Shown here: piece by piece, positions 3,188-63,410 of the stretch
How positions within the stretch are numbered: the first letter of the stretch is position 1
How the letters are laid out: each line of letters opens with the position of its first letter
Source of the DNA: Alkaliphilus serpentinus
Lineage (GTDB): Bacteria; Bacillota; Clostridia; Peptostreptococcales; Natronincolaceae
DNA length: 64,000 bases
Direction: 5' to 3'
Assembly (NCBI RefSeq): GCF_009017255.1
Contig: NZ_WBZB01000022.1
Span: 1-64,000 of the forward strand
Position numbers and translations under genes: made by a program
The notes under the pieces: generated by a model
Told to the model about the DNA's origin: nothing
Seen by the model: only the letters and a program-made list of their open reading frames with translations
Databases searched by the model: none

Positions 3188-3399
3188 CTCCTTTTGGTTG
3201 TTTATATGTTATTATCAACGATTTCCATTATTATATTACCACAATTGCTGGCATTAAGCCATGATGTTTATGCTCTTTTTCAAGGATGTATATAAAAACC
3301 TAATGGATAAACGGAGTATGATAGAGATATTCTATTGTTATTTTTCAAGCAATGATGATATTCTTTATTATAGTAAAGTTTAATAAAGGAGGACATAAA

Positions 3400-3867
3400 A
3401 TGAAGACTGAAATAAACATTGAAAAAGTTAAGGCTGATGCCGAGGAACTCTTTAGAAAAGGGGATTTCTTCTGTTCAGAGGCCATTGTATCATCTATAAG
3501 AGACAATTTTGAAATTGATATGCCTGAAGAAATGATCGCTATGGCTTCTACCTTTCCTGTAGGGATTGGCCGTTCTAAATGTGTATGTGGAGCAGTTTCA
3601 GGCGCATTACTTGCCTTAGGCTATTTCTTCGGAAGAACCAAAGGGGGCGATCCAAAGGTACAAAAGACCTTAGAATTAGCCAATGAGCTTCAACAAAGCT
3701 TTAAAGATAATCACAAGGTATTATGCTGTAAGATTTTAACCCATGGTATGGATATGGCATCAGGTGAGCACAAAGCCCAATGTGTATCCTTTACAGGAGA
3801 GATGGCAAAAAAGGCAGCAGAAATCATTGTCCGAGAAAAAGGCCTGAAAACTGCTGATGGACTATAG
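3400..3867 (+). CDS. C_GCAxxG_C_C family protein
   Basis: The 155-residue product carries the family signature: a Cys in FFCSEAIV (about residue 26), the CVCGAVSGALLALG core (about 65-78), and later Cys residues in VLCCKIL and AQCVSF. The family (TIGR01909/PF09719) is thought to be a redox or metal-binding protein, function not established. The ATG at 3400 has AAAGGAGG seven bases upstream and is preferred over an in-frame ATG at 3352. The gene lies 11 bp before a TDT-family transporter and probably shares its transcript. A selenocysteine-containing paralogue lies at 21098-21769. Confidence 0.85.
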   Translation: MKTEINIEKVKADAEELFRKGDFFCSEAIVSSIRDNFEIDMPEEMIAMASTFPVGIGRSKCVCGAVSGALLALGYFFGRTKGGDPKVQKTLELANELQQSFKDNHKVLCCKILTHGMDMASGEHKAQCVSFTGEMAKKAAEIIVREKGLKTADGL

Positions 3868-17979: not shown

Positions 17980-19326
17980 TTATCTTTCGCCATCACAGCA
18001 TGGAGTAGTTGGAGCAGGTGTCCAATCCATATCCTGTGGTAAATTATTCAAATCCTCCACAACCAAGAAACTTCCATCTAGCATACCCATCCAGCAGCTA
18101 AATCCCAATTGCCCCTCTTCTTCTGGGGTAAACTCTATAACGTTATAGCCAGGTTCCACCTTCATATTGATACCTAAACTAGGAATTGCTACTTCATTAT
18201 TACAAGCGTTTACCTCTTCTCCACGAATTACCCATTTAACTGCTCTTCCTTTTTCTAAAACGAAGTAATTGGGCTCATAGCCATTGTTATTGGCATAGGT
18301 GGTAATTACTTGATACTCATTTATGATTTCTGGAAGCATAGCAGAAGTAATTTCTTGTTTAGCAGCGCTGGCAAATGTGGTTTTTCCCTGAAGGGCAAGT
18401 CCCCTATTGATAATTATTACCCCCAACACCATTACTAATACTGCTGATAATTTCAGAAGCTTTTTATTTAAACCAGAGCTAATATAACCACTTATAGTAC
18501 CAAATCCCATCATTAGAGGTACAGTTCCTATACTAAAGAAAAACATTGCAATAGCACCCTTAAGGGGACTTCCAGTTCCTAAAGCGTAAAGCTGCATAGT
18601 TTGTAAGGGGCCGCAGGGCATAAAGCCTGTAGCTAAACCAATATAAAAGGGAGCTTTACTATTGCCCATAAAGCTTGGAGCTTTAAAAAACTTAGGGATC
18701 TTGATGTAGCTTCTTAAAAACTTAAAGGGTTCCAACATACTTAAACCCAACAGAATCATAAATACTCCGGCAAAAATCGTGATATAACCCTTCATTAAAG
18801 GCGAAAAACTAATAACCGATCCAATTCCTCCAACAATTCCGCCTACGATTGTATAGGCTATTACTCTCCCAGCGTTGTAGAGAAGTGAAGATTTTACAGG
18901 GTTTTTAAAGGCTAAGCTTTGAGAAATTACAATACCACCGCACATGGTTAAACAATGCAGGGAAGTTATTGCTCCTAATATCAACAATATTGGATAGCTA
19001 GCATTCTCATCAAGCTGAGGCATATAGTTAAAGCCAATGGTGCTTTTTATAATTAAATAGAGACCTAATAAAACAGTGATACCCACAAATATGCCAGTAT
19101 AAGATGATTTTTTTATTTCTTTAGATTCTATTTGACTGCCTTCATAGCCTAAGACTTTAATAGAAGATAGAATTTTATCTATATTCGATGAGTCACAGGT
19201 TAATAACCCCTTTTCATAGGAAACCTCCACATTAATAGCCCCCAGCTTTTCTACAGCTTTTTTAATCCGATCACTACAATTATTACAATGCATACCAGTT
19301 ATTTTTAAAGTGATAGCCTTTTTCAT
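17980..19326 (-). CDS. HMA - DsbD/UreH-type membrane domain - cupredoxin fusion protein
   Basis: Three modules lie in one 448-residue chain. First, a heavy-metal-associated domain with GMHCNNC (about residues 12-18) that binds Cu(I). Second, a six-helix sulfite exporter/UreH/DsbD-like membrane domain (about 75-320) with the paired motifs LHCLTMCGG and FMPCGPLQTMQ, whose prolines and cysteines pass electrons or metal across the membrane. Third, a C-terminal cupredoxin-like domain (about 335-435) with NACNNE and FSCWMGM as likely copper ligands. The order suggests copper export or delivery to an extracellular site. The second ATG at 19326 has the better spacing from AGGAGA; 19332 is the alternative. 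It lies beside mobA and a CopZ-like zinc ribbon gene. Confidence 0.8.
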   Translation of the reverse strand: MKKAITLKITGMHCNNCSDRIKKAVEKLGAINVEVSYEKGLLTCDSSNIDKILSSIKVLGYEGSQIESKEIKKSSYTGIFVGITVLLGLYLIIKSTIGFNYMPQLDENASYPILLILGAITSLHCLTMCGGIVISQSLAFKNPVKSSLLYNAGRVIAYTIVGGIVGGIGSVISFSPLMKGYITIFAGVFMILLGLSMLEPFKFLRSYIKIPKFFKAPSFMGNSKAPFYIGLATGFMPCGPLQTMQLYALGTGSPLKGAIAMFFFSIGTVPLMMGFGTISGYISSGLNKKLLKLSAVLVMVLGVIIINRGLALQGKTTFASAAKQEITSAMLPEIINEYQVITTYANNNGYEPNYFVLEKGRAVKWVIRGEEVNACNNEVAIPSLGINMKVEPGYNVIEFTPEEEGQLGFSCWMGMLDGSFLVVEDLNNLPQDMDWTPAPTTPCCDGER

Positions 19327-19344
19327 GATCATCTTCTCCTAATA

Positions 19345-20882: not shown

Positions 20883-20917
20883 AAAAGAGGGTGCGTTGGA
20901 GAACACACCCTCTTTTA
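20883..20917. terminator. Terminator hairpin, copy 1
   Basis: AAAAGAGGGTGCGTT pairs with AACACACCCTCTTTT around GGAG. On the minus strand it is followed by TTTT. A near-identical hairpin lies at 21056-21085 on the other side of the palindromic repeat. Confidence 0.8.
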
Positions 20918-21055
20918 TTGATGAAATTACAGACTGATCAAAAGCCCTTAGATTCGAGGCGCAATCAAAAGTAGCGATTGCAACGTATACAGAAATACGT
21001 AAGGGTGCTGGTTTTGTGAAGCAACAAAGAATATGAGGGTTTTTCATCAGACTGA
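20918..21055. repeat. Dispersed palindromic repeat, fullest copy
   Basis: The element reads ACAGACTGATC near the left and ATCAGACTGAGAG at the right, with internal TTAGATTCGAGGCGCAA and GGTGCTGGTTTTGTGAAGC. The same modules recur near 4.84, 56.2 and 61.5 kb. It sits exactly between two copies of the GAGGGTGTGTT terminator hairpin, as if inserted into one with duplication of about 30 bp. It has no coding capacity; the ORF crossing it is fortuitous. Confidence 0.65.
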
Positions 21056-21085
21056 GAGGGTGTGTTGGAAAACACACCCTCTTTC
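21056..21085. terminator. Terminator hairpin, copy 2 (downstream of the selenoprotein gene)
   Basis: GAGGGTGTGTT pairs with AACACACCCTC around GGAA or its equivalent, just downstream of the minus-strand stop at 21098. Confidence 0.7.
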
Positions 21086-21097
21086 ATCATGAAAAAA

Positions 21098-21769
21098 CTA
21101 TAGCTTGCTGTTGAGTATTTCAACCATTTTTACAACTGTATCAGCTGTAACACCTGCACAACGCTCTTTTCTTTCAGGATCGCCATAAGCACATCCCTGA
21201 ACCTCCATGAACTTACCAACTGAATCAACGCATAATACTGATTCTGCAACGGTTGTTGGAAGGTTTAAGCCTGCTGGCTGGAAGATTGGGAAAGACTCTA
21301 CTTTATACCAATCCCATAATTCTTTAACGATTTCCTTTTGCTGATCCTTCTCACAAACTGTACCAACACATGCTGCGGCAACCCCTAAACATCCACATAG
21401 TGTGGCTTGACCGGCATAACCTCCAGCAGCATTAATAAATGCTTCTGTTGGGATTTGATTGAATGGATATCCTACTTGTTCTGCTAATGATCCGAAGAAC
21501 CCTTCGGCTACTCCAAAGCCTCAGCCAGCGCCTGTCTTATAGGCGTCATATGCCTTTTGGCCGGCTTTTTCAGCATCTAGCTTAGCATAGGTAAAGGGCC
21601 ATTGTGGTTTTTCTGCTGTTGCAGAAGTAGAAGGAGCTGCTGCTTTATCAGTACATGCAGTTAATAAGCTACCTACTCCACCCATAAGAGTAACTCCCGC
21701 TATGGAAGTTCCAACTCCCTTTAAGAAATCTTTTCTTGATATTTGCTTGTCTTTCTTTTCAGTTGTCAT
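21098..21769 (-). CDS. Predicted selenoprotein: C_GCAxxG_C_C family, Tat/lipoprotein-type signal, Sec83
   Basis: The frame from 21769 meets TGA at 21521-21523 and then stays open for 140 more codons to TAG at 21098. The downstream part is clearly the same protein: GGYAGQATLCGCLGVAAACVG is the C_GCAxxG core, with later Cys in VLCVDS, QGCAYG and ERCAGV. The UGA replaces the first family cysteine (TGAG-U-GFGVAEGFF), so it is read as selenocysteine. A SECIS-like hairpin follows: CCGAA-GGGUUC-UUCGG, its loop 19-24 nt after the UGA and starting with G. The N-terminus has SRKDFLK (twin-arginine-like) and lipobox LLTAC (Cys39). tatAC lie at 24.7-25.6 kb. Expected mature location is outside the membrane. 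Confidence 0.85.
21498..21513 (-). promoter_or_regulatory. Candidate bacterial SECIS element (C_GCAxxG_C_C selenoprotein)
   Basis: On the minus strand, starting 14 nt after the UGA, five pairs CCGAA/UUCGG close a six-base loop GGGUUC. Bacterial SECIS elements need an apical loop 16-37 nt after the UGA with a G in its first two positions; both conditions are met. Confidence 0.7.
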
Positions 21770-22066: not shown

Positions 22067-22957
22067 ATGAACCTTCAATATTTAAAAGCCTTTTATGTAA
22101 CTGTAAAGCTGAATAGCATTTCAAAAGCCGCCAAGGAGCTACATTTAACTCAGCCGGGCTTAAGTATGCAAATCCAATCTCTAGAAAAAGAATTGGCAGT
22201 TACCCTTCTTACTAGAAGTAATAAGGGGGTTGAACTAACCGAAGCCGGCACTGTGGTTTTTGATTATGCCAATACGATCCTTTCTATGCAGGATAACATC
22301 GAGAGGGATTTACAAAGCTTAAAGACCAATAAAAAGGATCTACTAATTGGTTCATGTAAGGCAGTCGGTGAATATGCTCTTCCCTGTAGCATATATATCT
22401 ATAAGCAGGATCATCAGGATGTAGATATTCATTATAACATTGTCAACTCTGAGGAGGTCCTCAATAGTTTATCCGACAGAACCATTAACATCGGAATTCT
22501 AAATGGCTATTTGCAAAAGGATCATATTAAGCTTGAAAAAATAACCTCTAATCGACTTCTATTGGTTACTTCCTTACCTCTAGTAAAGGATAAAATCACC
22601 TTAGAGGAATTAGTGAAGCTTCCCTTAATTTTCAGGGAAGAGGGCTCAGGAACCAGAGCTACCATACTGGAAAGTCTAAAAGCTTATAATATAAAATTGA
22701 AGGATATGAATATTATCTATGAACTAAATTCTATGGAGGCAATTAAAACCTCAGTAATTGCAGGTAAGGGTATCTCCTTTATACCAGAGCTAAGCATTAA
22801 AAGGGAGCTGAGGGATGGCGTTTTAAGAGAAATACAAATTGAAGGCTTAAATATTCAAAGTAACTTTTATATAGCCTATAGAGAGGATCATCAATTTACC
22901 AGCTTCGAAGGGGAGTTTGTAAGTTTCATTAAATCCTCTAAGAGGGGTTTTTGCTAA
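22067..22957 (+). CDS. LysR family transcriptional regulator
   Basis: The 296-residue protein has the LysR winged helix at the start (LNSISKAAKELHLTQPGLSMQIQSLEKEL, helix-turn-helix at about 18-37) and a periplasmic-binding-like effector domain from about residue 90 (LLIGSCKAVGEYALP, FREEGSGTRATIL, SVIAGKGISFIPE). The FREEGSGTR motif recurs in regulators of sulfur, nitrogen and CO2 metabolism such as CysL and CbbR. It is divergent from the selenoprotein gene and next to a YeeE-TusA sulfur or selenium transport set, which are its likely targets. AAAGGGAGTGATTCCTC precedes the ATG. Confidence 0.88.
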   Translation: MNLQYLKAFYVTVKLNSISKAAKELHLTQPGLSMQIQSLEKELAVTLLTRSNKGVELTEAGTVVFDYANTILSMQDNIERDLQSLKTNKKDLLIGSCKAVGEYALPCSIYIYKQDHQDVDIHYNIVNSEEVLNSLSDRTINIGILNGYLQKDHIKLEKITSNRLLLVTSLPLVKDKITLEELVKLPLIFREEGSGTRATILESLKAYNIKLKDMNIIYELNSMEAIKTSVIAGKGISFIPELSIKRELRDGVLREIQIEGLNIQSNFYIAYREDHQFTSFEGEFVSFIKSSKRGFC

Positions 22958-22982: not shown

Positions 22983-23024
22983 AAAACAACCTTAGCTATC
23001 GAAAAAGCTAAGGTTGTTTTCTTA
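22983..23024. terminator. Bidirectional terminator
   Basis: GAAAACAACCTTAGCT pairs with AGCTAAGGTTGTTTTC around a seven-base loop between the LysR gene and the convergent YeeE-like gene. Confidence 0.85.
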
Positions 23025-23540
23025 TAGTAGATACTTGTATAGTATTTTGCAGCCGATGGCAGCCCCTACAAACATAAAAATTCCAAATACCCAACCATGG
23101 AGGGAAAAAGAGGGTATAGCGCTAAAATATGCCCCTATATTACAGCCAAAGCTCAGTCTGGTCCCATAACCCATTAGAATTCCTCCTAATAGAGCAAATC
23201 CCAGTTGCCTAAAGCTTTTGATCTTCTTCCACTTAAATTCAGAAGCCCATAGCACAGCTAAAAGAGCTCCAATAATTACGGCAAAATTGATAACTGTATA
23301 GGTGTTCATAAAGAAGCTTTGTCCATCCTTAAGGCCATTGTTGTATGCAGCAAAATAGTACCATTTATTAGGAGCAAATCCAACTTTCTCTAGAATCCCT
23401 GCTCCCCAAAATAAAAATCCTGTAGTTACCTTCCATGCTGAACCAGTTATGGAAAGCATCAAAATATTTAATAATGCAAGGATTATTCCACCAACCCAGT
23501 AGGGCCAAGGCTTTTTAAATATTTTATGATATATTTTCAA
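23022..23540 (-). CDS. YeeE/YedE family membrane protein, C-terminal-half type
   Basis: The 172-residue membrane protein has four to five helices and the family motif YGTRLSFGCNIGAYFSAIPS (about 123-142) followed by SLHGWVFG. This corresponds to the second half of full-length YeeE/TsuA transporters, which move thiosulfate or related sulfur compounds through conserved cysteines. The first half is encoded by the gene at 23803-24501, with a TusA gene between. A TTG at 23538-23540 preceded by GGGAGGGAAGGAT is the best start; an upstream ATG at 23561 has no ribosome site at proper spacing. Confidence 0.82.
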   Translation of the reverse strand: MKIYHKIFKKPWPYWVGGIILALLNILMLSITGSAWKVTTGFLFWGAGILEKVGFAPNKWYYFAAYNNGLKDGQSFFMNTYTVINFAVIIGALLAVLWASEFKWKKIKSFRQLGFALLGGILMGYGTRLSFGCNIGAYFSAIPSFSLHGWVFGIFMFVGAAIGCKILYKYLL

Positions 23541-23564
23541 ATCCTTCCCTCCCTTTAGCATCCT

Positions 23565-23792
23565 TTATCTTGCCTTTTCAATATAAATCTCCCATTCCCC
23601 TTCAGATATCTCTATATAGTCAATATAATGCCCTTGCTTTTTGGTCCATTCAACAACATTTTTAATAGAGCAATTATGATCTGTATGCATAATTAATACG
23701 TCCCCTATACTCATCTTTTCTAGTTGTTTTAAGGCCTTTAACAATGGGATGGGACACGCCTCAAATAAACAATCTAACTTATACTCTGCCAT
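23565..23792 (-). CDS. TusA/SirA/YedF-type sulfurtransferase-like protein
   Basis: The 75-residue protein has the family motif CLFEACPIPLLKALKQLEKM (about 8-27), with the CPxP cysteine near residue 13, and a VLIMHTDHNCSIKNVVEW core with a second cysteine. TusA-type proteins carry persulfide sulfur (and in selenium systems, selenium) from a transporter to acceptors. It lies between two halves of a YeeE/YedE transporter, in the order seen for thiosulfate or selenium uptake sets. GTAGGAGGAGTATT precedes the ATG. Confidence 0.88.
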   Translation of the reverse strand: MAEYKLDCLFEACPIPLLKALKQLEKMSIGDVLIMHTDHNCSIKNVVEWTKKQGHYIDYIEISEGEWEIYIEKAR

Positions 23793-23802
23793 AATACTCC
23801 TC

Positions 23803-24501
23803 CTACATAGATGACATGATACTATTCTTTTTGTCGAACCAATCCGCTACAAAATAAAGGCCAACCAATACTATCAGCTGTATAATCAGGGAAGGAAATA
23901 ATCCCAAATACTTTGGTATATAGATTGTCTTAGATTTTGAAATTAGAATTTTGTCCCAAAATTCAAAATGCCTTGCTCCCATAGTTGCACCAATGATAAA
24001 GCCAATTAAAACTACAATTTGCAGGATATAGCCCTCTCCAATCCTCATTAGAGTTCCAGAAGCACAGCCTCCGGCTATAACCATTCCAACACCAAATAAT
24101 ATTGCCCCTAGGGCCGTATGCAAACCTACTGGTTTTAGTTGTCCTGGAATATTTTCCAGCAGGTGAAGACCATGAATTTCAATTGTATTATATTGAATGA
24201 TGAAGAAACCCACAGTTGAGATGATAAGAGCTATCAGTATTGCCTTTAACAAAGAGGTACTTCCTACCATAATTGGATCTCGAAAGCTGGCAGCAAAACA
24301 AAAGCGGGATCTTTGCATTGTAACCCCTATTAAAATACCAATAATCCAAAAGCTACTAAAGCGTAGATTATAGTTTAAAAGGGCTAAATAAATAACTAAA
24401 GCTAGTAATGTTACACCAATACCATAGGGTGTTTGATTTTTTTTCTTTTTGTTTTCCATCTGCCTCTTTTTAATAAGCTCTTCAATTTTATTTGATGTCA
24501 T
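23803..24501 (-). CDS. YeeE/YedE family membrane protein, N-terminal-half type
   Basis: This 232-residue membrane protein has a basic, cytoplasmic first 25 residues and then about six helices. Motifs MQRSRFCFAASFRDP (about 83-97) and GGCASGTLMRIGEGY (about 144-158) are the two cysteine sites of the first half of YeeE/YedE transporters. It leads an operon with tusA (10 bp away) and the second-half protein. Functionally the two halves should assemble as one transporter for thiosulfate, or possibly a selenium compound given the selenoprotein gene nearby. ATAGGAGGGTTGATATA precedes the ATG. Confidence 0.85.
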   Translation of the reverse strand: MTSNKIEELIKKRQMENKKKKNQTPYGIGVTLLALVIYLALLNYNLRFSSFWIIGILIGVTMQRSRFCFAASFRDPIMVGSTSLLKAILIALIISTVGFFIIQYNTIEIHGLHLLENIPGQLKPVGLHTALGAILFGVGMVIAGGCASGTLMRIGEGYILQIVVLIGFIIGATMGARHFEFWDKILISKSKTIYIPKYLGLFPSLIIQLIVLVGLYFVADWFDKKNSIMSSM

Positions 24502-24666: not shown

Positions 24667-25377
24667 TTACTTGTTCTTTCTCTTATAGATAAAGCTGGAT
24701 ATGATGATACTAAGTTCAAAAAGCAAAACCATTGGTGTTGCCAATAGTATTTGAGATACAATATCCGGCGGCGTTAGAATTGCTGCAACAATAAAGATAA
24801 TCAAAATAATAAACTTCCTAGACTTTCTTAAGAAAGTAGGATTTACTATATTAAACTGAGATAACATCATTACTAATATTGGCAACTGAAATGTTAAGCC
24901 AAAGGATAATAGCATAGAGCCCACAAAGCTGATATAATTTGCAAAGGAAAAAAGAGGCTCAATGTCGTCCCTAGACATTTTTATAAAAAATTCAATCGTT
25001 AATGGCACGATTCCAAAATAGGCAAAGGCTGCCCCTAGTAGAAAAAAAACCATCGCCAATATATTGGCAAGTACTAGATAAAGCCTTTGCTTTAGATCTA
25101 GTCCTGGCAAAACAAAACGCCATATTTGGTATAAAACGATGGGCAAAGTTATTATTAAGCCCGTAAGCAGAGATATTTTAATGTAGGCTAAAAATAAATC
25201 GGGAGGACTTAAATAAATAAACTTTAATTCCTTAGCTGGCATAATGATATAATCTACTATTTTATCAACATAGAAATAACTTATGACCCCACCCATTATA
25301 AGAGCTATGGCTATTATAATAATTCTCTTTCTTAATTCTTCTAAATGACCTACTAAAGAAAGCTTCTTATCTTCCAT
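24667..25377 (-). CDS. tatC: Sec-independent protein translocase TatC
   Basis: TatC is the receptor of the twin-arginine translocase and binds the RR signal of folded proteins for export. The 236-residue protein has six membrane helices and the family motifs HLEELRKRIIII near the start, YQIWRFVLPGL (about 83-93), and a central FIKMSRDD loop. It lies 16 bp downstream of tatA with no tatB, as is usual in Gram-positive bacteria. The C_GCAxxG_C_C selenoprotein with a twin-arginine-like signal is a plausible client. Length is normal. Confidence 0.93.
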   Translation of the reverse strand: MEDKKLSLVGHLEELRKRIIIIAIALIMGGVISYFYVDKIVDYIIMPAKELKFIYLSPPDLFLAYIKISLLTGLIITLPIVLYQIWRFVLPGLDLKQRLYLVLANILAMVFFLLGAAFAYFGIVPLTIEFFIKMSRDDIEPLFSFANYISFVGSMLLSFGLTFQLPILVMMLSQFNIVNPTFLRKSRKFIILIIFIVAAILTPPDIVSQILLATPMVLLFELSIIISSFIYKRKNK

Positions 25378-25392
25378 TGTGCTATCCTCAGT

Positions 25393-25581
25393 TTACTTAT
25401 CTGATTCTTTTTTTTCAGCTTCACCCTTAACCCCTGAGGTTATTTCTGATGTGTGGCTTTTAAACTCTCTAATACCCTTTCCTAATGCTTTTCCGATTTC
25501 GGGCAGCTTACTTGGACCAAAAACCACTAGGGCAATCACTAATATTAAGATTAATTCAGGTGCACCTAATTTACCAAACAT
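25393..25581 (-). CDS. tatA: Sec-independent protein translocase TatA
   Basis: The 62-residue protein has the TatA layout: a short N-terminus ([13 protein letters not shown]), one membrane helix ([18 protein letters not shown]) with the conserved FGPxKLPE hinge, an amphipathic helix ([16 protein letters not shown]) and a charged tail. TatA multimers form the transport pore recruited by TatC. GGAGGAATAAATTT precedes the ATG. It is the first gene of the tatAC pair. Confidence 0.93.
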
Positions 25582-34858: not shown

Positions 34859-35680
34859 ATGATCCAAATAGTCACCGATAGCACCGCTTACTTCGAAAGG
34901 GCCGAAATGGAGAAATACGGATTGAAAATTGTTCCCCTTTCAGTGAACTTTGAAAACACTGTAAGTGATGAGGGCTTTCCAGGGGAATTTGACGAATTTT
35001 TTAATAGACTTGCTGTATCTAAGGATTTTCCTACCACCTCCCAGCCTTCTGCTGGCGCCTTTGCTGAGGTGTATAAAAAAGCCATCGAAGAAGGCAAAGA
35101 AGTGATTACCATAACCCTCACAGCCAAGCTTAGTGGTACATATAATAGTGCCATTACTGCTGCAGCCTTAGTTGACCAATCTAAGGTTACGGTAGTGGAT
35201 TCTGAAACAACTGCAGCCAATTTAAAGGAGCTAGTTATGATGGCCCTTGAACTTTCCAATAATGGATTGTCAAGAAATGAAATAGTGAATATCTTAGAAT
35301 CTCAAAAGAAGAGAATGGGTGTAAATTTAACTGTAGGAACCCTTGAATATTTGAAAAAGGGTGGACGTCTTTCCAACACCGGGGCCCTTATAGGGAATCT
35401 TTTGAACATTAAGCCCATTATCGCCTTAAAGGATGGTAAGCTTGTACCGGTAGGAAAGGTTAGAGGTAGAAAAAACGCCATAGAAAAGATCAGCGAAGGG
35501 ATTCCACAAGAGGTTAAAACCATAAGCATCTGTCATATTTTTGCCCTTGAGGAGGCTACTGAGATTAAAGAATACTTTATAGACAAATATCCCAGTGCTA
35601 CTATAAACCTAGAGGTTTTAGGACCAGTAATTGGCGCCCACCTTGGCCCAAAGGCCCTTGGAGTTTTATATAGTTACTAG
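34859..35680 (+). CDS. DegV family protein (fatty acid binding)
   Basis: The 273-residue protein shows the DegV pattern: MIQIVTDSTAYF (start), TTSQPSAGAFAEVYKKA, ITLTAKLSGTYNSA (about 84-97), NLTVGTLEYLKKGGRLSNTGALIGNLLNIKPI and a final GPVIGAHLGPKALGVLY. In Gram-positive bacteria such proteins (FakB) hold fatty acids for phosphorylation by FakA. AGGAGATGATATA precedes the ATG; a promoter-like AT-rich region lies before. No FakA kinase gene is adjacent, so the pairing is with a distant gene. Confidence 0.9.
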   Translation: MIQIVTDSTAYFERAEMEKYGLKIVPLSVNFENTVSDEGFPGEFDEFFNRLAVSKDFPTTSQPSAGAFAEVYKKAIEEGKEVITITLTAKLSGTYNSAITAAALVDQSKVTVVDSETTAANLKELVMMALELSNNGLSRNEIVNILESQKKRMGVNLTVGTLEYLKKGGRLSNTGALIGNLLNIKPIIALKDGKLVPVGKVRGRKNAIEKISEGIPQEVKTISICHIFALEEATEIKEYFIDKYPSATINLEVLGPVIGAHLGPKALGVLYSY

Positions 35681-38818: not shown

Positions 38819-38887
38819 TTAGTTGTTATTATTTTCCAAATTAAACTTACATTAACATCATATTTTCATTTTAGCCTGTAAAAAATA

Positions 38888-39012
38888 TAAATGAGCCGAA
38901 AGTTTATTAAAATAAACTGCGGGGGACCCAAAAATGGGGTGAATCGTCTATTATGACGTAGGCTATTTCCCAAGCCGAACCCGACAGCTAACCTCGTAGG
39001 CTACAGGGAGGG
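38888..39012 (+). promoter_or_regulatory. c-di-AMP riboswitch (ydaO-yuaA type)
   Basis: The sequence has the conserved core of the ydaO-yuaA element: GCGGGGGACCC, then TGGGGTGAATCG, GTAGGC, AAGCCGAACCCGACAGCTAACC and TCGTAGGCTAC, in the usual order. It sits directly before a gene for a SleB-type wall hydrolase, a classic target. c-di-AMP binding switches such genes off. Confidence 0.88.
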
Positions 39013-39018
39013 TTTAAA

Positions 39019-41772: not shown

Positions 41773-42016
41773 TTTATTAAATAAAAAACTCCTCATCTCT
41801 AAATTAAGAGACGAAGAGTATTCTCCGCGGTACCACTCTAAATTGTGCCTAAGCACCCCTTATTGGTTTAATAACCTATCCTTCTAACGGAGGATTGCCG
41901 TCTAGCTTTTAACCAGCACTCATAAGTCCATTCAAAGTAGGATTTAGTTCGATCTTCCACCATCATCGACTCGCTATTATAAATTGCCTACCTCTACTAT
42001 TCTCAATCATCGTTTT
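41773..42016 (-). promoter_or_regulatory. T-box leader of trpS (Trp specifier)
   Basis: On the minus strand the leader has an AG box (GATGGTGGAAG), a specifier loop with UGG in GAATGGACTT, the T-box core AGAGTGGTACCGCGG (about 41824-41838) and a terminator/antiterminator region (AGAGATGAGGAGTTTTTT near 41780-41800). Uncharged tRNA-Trp is expected to stabilise the antiterminator and raise trpS expression. Confidence 0.9.
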
Positions 42017-42074
42017 ATTATTTTGAATTATATAATATTGGAAAAGTTCTTGTCAATATGATAATTTTAATAAT

Positions 42075-63281: not shown

Positions 63282-63296
63282 TTGAAAAGGTAGATA

Positions 63297-63332
63297 ACCT
63301 TTAAATTGGTCCCGTGAGGCTAGTAAGGAAAA
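63297..63332 (+). promoter_or_regulatory. PyrR-binding loop 1
   Basis: GGTCCCGTGAGGCTAG with flanking CCTT/AAGG matches the PyrR anti-antiterminator consensus; the terminator at 63369-63410 follows. Confidence 0.85.
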
Positions 63333-63368
63333 TGAATACATTTTTATTGTGTTCTTGGTGTACATTCA

Positions 63369-63410
63369 CACCCCTTTGATTTCATGCGGATCAAAGGGGT
63401 TTATTTATTT
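63369..63410 (+). terminator. Attenuator terminator of the pyr leader
   Basis: ACCCCTTTGAT pairs with ATCAAAGGGGT around a loop, then TTATTTATTT. Confidence 0.85.

Follow-up and report, generated by a model that had tools for sequence, protein, structure and literature searches.

A minus-strand reading frame in the genome of Alkaliphilus serpentinus raises the question of whether the UGA codon within it is a stop signal or encodes selenocysteine and, if the latter, what the full-length protein might be. The frame occupies 21098..21769 (-) of the window, by which we mean the whole 64,000-nt stretch that was analyzed (contig NZ_WBZB01000022.1, positions 1 to 64,000). It opens with an ATG at 21769 and runs for 82 codons to the UGA at 21521..21523 (-), beyond which 140 further codons remain open up to a TAG stop (21098-21100). 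These are exactly the coordinates reported in a first-pass annotation of the window, which had proposed a hidden selenoprotein here and had stated that standard gene calling would truncate it. The ordinary gene call indeed stops at the UGA, under which the gene would remain an 82-aa fragment, while reading the UGA as selenocysteine at codon 83 (Sec83) gives a protein of 223 aa. From sequence comparison we put at roughly 0.93 the probability that this is a selenoprotein gene whose product is kin to split-Soret cytochrome c.

The opposite reading, that the UGA is an ordinary stop, a sequencing error or the mark of a pseudogene and that the 82-aa piece is the functional product, agrees with the standard gene call and with the use of TGA as stop codon by a few other open reading frames (ORFs) of the window. 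The distribution of the codon argues otherwise. An order-level search of 297 genomes revealed a close homologue in 24, and in each of these one copy or more contains a single in-frame TGA. When 399 genomes from across the phylum were sampled, 12 more genomes, in other families, had UGA forms sharing >40% identity, and many Cys forms were seen at <40% identity. Thus 36 genomes (source genome included) and 45 distinct loci share the UGA at this codon, and such recurrence across dozens of independent genomes excludes a sequencing error. The first-pass annotation had suggested inspecting this column in homologues, and every aligned homologue has either Cys or Sec there. Moreover, when the window gene is compared with seven relatives, pN/pS is 0.20-0.40 after the UGA and 0.26-0.43 before it, which indicates that the sequence past the UGA is under purifying selection, like the segment preceding it. 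With 140 selected codons beyond the UGA, Cys at this position elsewhere and a conserved hairpin downstream (see below), a plain stop or pseudogene is highly improbable.

Several observations were made alongside this survey. Genomes G376, G329, G393, G307, G403 and G321 carry remoter homologues that contain one in-frame TGA, and there may be additional Sec branches. In G037, G113 and G074 the selenoprotein gene is present in tandem copies, and in G074 one neighboring copy (L032:2490-3029) is devoid of the stretch around Sec. A scan of the window for hidden Sec genes showed one further TGA-ended ORF with a long open extension, at 35302-35529 (-).

We propose that the cell's own SelA/SelB/SelC/SelD read codon 83 as selenocysteine, directed by the downstream hairpin. 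A search for this machinery, which the first-pass annotation had recommended, recovered every component in the genome: tRNA-Sec (72.7 bits, above the Rfam cut-off), selB and selA (scoring 378.9 and 628.9, respectively), which are adjacent to each other on another contig than the gene, and selD (408 bits), near selA/selB. This selD (L059, at G000:C34:32983-33906) has one in-frame UGA of its own. Among the 36 genomes with UGA forms, 33 have selA, and the three in which it was not found are represented by incomplete assemblies (63, 79, and 90%). An alternative genetic code, in which UGA would be a sense codon throughout, was rejected because UGA ends other ORFs and the Sec machinery is complete.

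The bacterial SECIS-type hairpin lies at 21492..21507 (-) and consists of CCGAAG (21507-21502) paired over 6 bp with CUUCGG (21497-21492), on either side of a GGUU loop (21501-21498). It begins 13 nt downstream of the UGA, leaving 19 nt between the UGA and the loop, which starts at nt 20. Published constraints on bacterial SECIS elements (PMC13188914) specify a loop of 3-9 nt, a stem of 4-16 bp, a G in the first two loop positions, a distance of 16-37 nt from the UGA and a minimum free energy ≤ -7.5. The window hairpin satisfies them in length, loop sequence and spacing, and with a folding energy of -8.3 kcal/mol. When the window sequence is folded alone, as the first-pass annotation had advised, an overlapping competitor hairpin reaches -10.5 and is the lowest-energy structure over 50 nt. 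With a z of -1.3 the hairpin is not outstanding, and its energy is uninformative. We accept the hairpin as real because of the comparison across species, rather than its energy in a single sequence.

In the homologues the stem extends to 7 bp (GCCGAAG/CUUCGGC), the window's own outermost pair being G-A. As the stem lies within coding sequence, synonymous codons were resampled as a null (2000 draws). In the 45 UGA genes, 305 of 315 stem cells are paired, against 242 ± 5.5 expected (max 260), and the full 7-bp stem is present in 37 of them, compared with a resampled mean of 6 and a maximum of 13. This resampling led us to reject a chance hairpin imposed by the peptide AEGFFG. None of the 17 Cys genes keeps the stem. 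The consensus fold of 28 distinct sequences shows the identical 7-bp stem with a 4-nt loop, and its covariation score is 0.247 versus 0.151 ± 0.016 in shuffles, with slid alignments scoring far lower. Three stem pairs vary on both sides through compensatory exchanges (G-C/C-G, A-U/G-C, and G-C/U-A). For example, both strands are altered and pairing is retained in GCCCAAG-GUCU-UUUGGGC and UCCGAGG-GGUU-CCUCGGA. The SECIS-like hairpin that had been noticed from the window alone is thus borne out by its agreement with published constraints, its conservation with covariation and its absence from Cys homologues. A separate observation concerns genome G030, in which a gene inside the Sec clade (L045:1498-2154, on the minus strand) has a TGC Cys codon at the Sec position and a decayed hairpin. 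The same genome also holds two UGA copies, making L045 a natural control for the hairpin.

As for the identity of the protein, its best match in NCBIfam is the split-Soret cytochrome c family NF047622 (residues 10-222, E 7e-38), although at 130.6 bits it scores below the curated cut-off of 400. The only clear solved relative by sequence is split-Soret cytochrome c itself (PDB 1h21, E 2.7e-25), and the AlphaFold model (pLDDT 86) gives a Foldseek match to that one solved fold (E 2.1e-12, TM 0.69). The protein is thus related to split-Soret cytochrome c but has no haem part, a relationship that the first-pass annotation, which had assigned it to the C_GCAxxG_C_C family, had overlooked. That family (PF09719) does match residues 89-218, past the UGA (E 2.1e-9; 37.9 bits vs. 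a gathering cut-off of 27), and a profile-profile comparison with the short PF09719 proteins (E 1.6e-16) aligns the second to fourth Cys. Sec83, however, is about four residues, or one helical turn, ahead of their first Cys, and the window protein differs from these short members also in being longer and, by prediction, exported. Its search against TIGR01909, named "C-GCAxxG-C-C family (seleno)protein" in NCBIfam, gave no match at E 0.001. Elsewhere in the window, at 3352-3867 (+), there is a second C_GCAxxG_C_C protein, a Cys form that scores 116.7 bits with TIGR01909, above the cut-off.

Among 48 aligned sequences, the only invariant Cys/Sec positions are U83, C125 (21395..21397 (-)), C180 (21230..21232 (-)), and C204 (21158..21160 (-)), with U83, C125 and C180 placed by the AlphaFold model at or beside helix starts. 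The UGA had been described as falling at the first redox cysteine position, followed by four more conserved cysteine motifs. It does occupy the invariant first Cys column, but that of the split-Soret clade rather than that of the short PF09719 proteins, and three Cys, not four, are invariant beyond it. The protein shares with Desulfovibrio desulfuricans split-Soret cytochrome c (1h21) the fold, the full-length domain and the four invariant Cys/Sec positions. In contrast to it, the window protein has Sec for the first Cys, no His after Cys180 and no C-terminal CxxCH haem motif. We found no CxxCH anywhere in the window protein, while two such motifs are present in nearly all Cys relatives and in seven UGA homologues (L067-L073). 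A dihaem reading was therefore rejected for the window protein; it holds for L067-L073, which are predicted Sec-containing dihaem split-Soret-type cytochromes in their own right, with both motifs C-terminal.

In a tree of 62 rows, built with a quick method and midpoint rooted for drawing, the family resolves into a Cys clade with two CxxCH, a UGA grade with two CxxCH (L067-L073) and a haem-less UGA clade that includes the window protein. The Sec/Cys state requires two changes on this tree. The tree, the root of which was not inferred, is compatible with a direction from Cys with haem, through Sec with haem, to Sec without haem. The His after the Cys180 equivalent is present in all proteins with haem motifs and in no haem-less ones, the pattern expected if it were a haem ligand.

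The first-pass annotation had also recognized a Tat-type lipoprotein signal. Its lipoprotein part is present, with a lipobox LTAC at residues 36-39 (21653..21664 (-)) that includes the presumptive lipid-anchor Cys39. The Tat-like motif SRKDFLK (21719..21739 (-)), however, reads RK and not RR, the form seen in homologues outside the clade. As Tat signals, RK variants are weaker. The neighboring TatAC probably exports the selenoprotein, as the only TatC of the genome sits at this locus, tatA/tatC are conserved as neighbors in most loci, and relatives have the RR form. Moreover, of 24 genomes that carry the gene 21 have TatC, whereas of 20 listed genomes of the order that lack the gene only 5 do (Fisher p 4e-5, uncorrected for kinship). 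In two genomes carrying the selenoprotein gene (G026 and G123) no TatC was found, which, together with the RK motif, makes the general Sec pathway a possible export route for the lipoprotein, with the adjacent Tat genes serving another cargo. Given the genomic company of TatC and the RR of the relatives, we regard that route as unlikely.

The Tat genes are part of a larger cluster. Upstream on the same strand are tatC (24667..25377 (-); TIGR00945 above cut-off) and tatA (25393..25581 (-); TIGR01411 above cut-off), as well as a YedE/YeeE-type transporter split into two genes around a TusA/YedF-like sulfurtransferase (23565..23792 (-); PF01206, E 3e-21). The first half of the transporter is at 23803..24501 (-) (PF04143, E 4e-33) and the second at 23022..23561 (-) (PF04143, E 6e-36; NF033796). 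Divergent from the selenoprotein gene is a LysR_Se-like regulator (22067..22957 (+)), which scores 239.6 bits with NF040786, just below the cut-off of 250. On the other side, at 17980..19332 (-), a membrane protein with HMA and DsbD_2 domains and a cupredoxin-like end is a neighbor in several relatives too. The tatAC genes and the sulfur/selenium-type transporter set had been noted before. What had been overlooked is that the cluster formed by the gene with tatA, tatC, split YedE, tusA and the LysR_Se-like gene is conserved. Across 22 separate loci, the YedE-TusA-YedE block lies within ~8 kb of the gene in 14, Tat genes are nearby in 14, and a divergent LysR gene 67-81% identical to that of the window is present in 10. 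As observations apart, two near-identical 33-nt hairpin repeats, at 20886-20918 and 21055-21087 and 169 nt apart, flank ~200 bp right after the selenoprotein gene, and are a candidate small repeat element or pair of terminators.

Comparative genomics has tied YedE, SirA/TusA-like and LysR_Se genes to selenium (Lin et al. 2015, PMC5322559), and YeeE/TusA has been linked to the import of thiosulfate and sulfane sulfur (PMC11582611). The window shares with the selenium-linked genes the YedE-type transporter beside a SirA/TusA-like gene and the selenium-linked type of LysR; it differs in that two half-genes of YedE flank tusA and are accompanied by tatAC and the gene of an exported selenoprotein, an arrangement for which no description was found in the literature searched.

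The fold, the invariant residues and the gene company together make an exported Sec redox lipoprotein serving sulfur/selenium chemistry the most likely function. The product would be a lipid-anchored protein made up of the core domain, but not the haem tail, of a split-Soret-type cytochrome c, in which Sec83 replaces one of the four invariant Cys. Sec83, Cys125, Cys180 and Cys204 might then form a small iron-sulfur centre, to which we give about an even chance, or, somewhat less probably, a selenol/thiol redox site. In the latter case, a metal-free oxidoreductase would cycle Sec83 and Cys by a disulfide or selenenyl-sulfide and be reduced from inside via the DsbD-like neighbor. The description of PF09719 as a putative redox-active protein is consistent with this, as is the presence of the DsbD_2/HMA gene in the window and several relatives, and Sec at only one of the four positions favors catalysis over a structural ligand. 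Yet exactly four invariant Cys/Sec positions is the number that a metal site needs, and the title of the 1h21 entry names a novel iron centre, reported solely for the haem protein. Under either chemistry, the target could tentatively be a sulfur/selenium species, reduced or zero-valent, on the outer side of the membrane, handled with the split YedE and TusA under the divergent LysR_Se-like regulator. It is doubtful that the protein instead exchanges electrons with a respiratory or molybdenum enzyme, with shared selenium regulation as its only link to sulfur/selenium uptake. Split-Soret cytochrome c is of the electron-transfer type, and mobA and a MoeA-like gene are close by in the window; but the conserved neighbors are the YedE-TusA-YedE block and LysR, not molybdenum genes, and MobA and MoeA-like queries matched none of the family loci. 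A more elaborate version of the sulfur/selenium role, which we consider improbable as a whole, is an exported Sec-ligated Fe-S protein, descended from a dihaem cytochrome that first gained Sec and then lost its haem, that would pass sulfur/selenium to the YedE-TusA importer.

Selenoproteins of PF09719 have been listed before, which tempers the rarity suggested by the first-pass annotation. Published lists include one entry in 2022 (PMC9312934) and two forms (1 and 2) in 2026 (PMC13188914), of which form 2, WP_012158890.1, possibly belongs to the same branch as the window protein. In the literature searched, nothing joined split-Soret cytochrome with selenocysteine, and the new parts are the haem-loss series and the gene cluster. 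A single domain shows Cys with haem, Sec with haem, Sec without haem and, inside the Sec clade, a Cys copy with a decayed hairpin, so that gain and loss of both Sec and haem are traceable within it. Its close association with Tat, split YedE, TusA and LysR_Se gives a way to approach the role of exported selenoproteins and the substrate of the transporter. Elsewhere, the window also contains a c-di-AMP riboswitch (38884-39017 (+)), a T-box leader (41804-42019 (-)), and a PyrR site (63294-63408 (+)).
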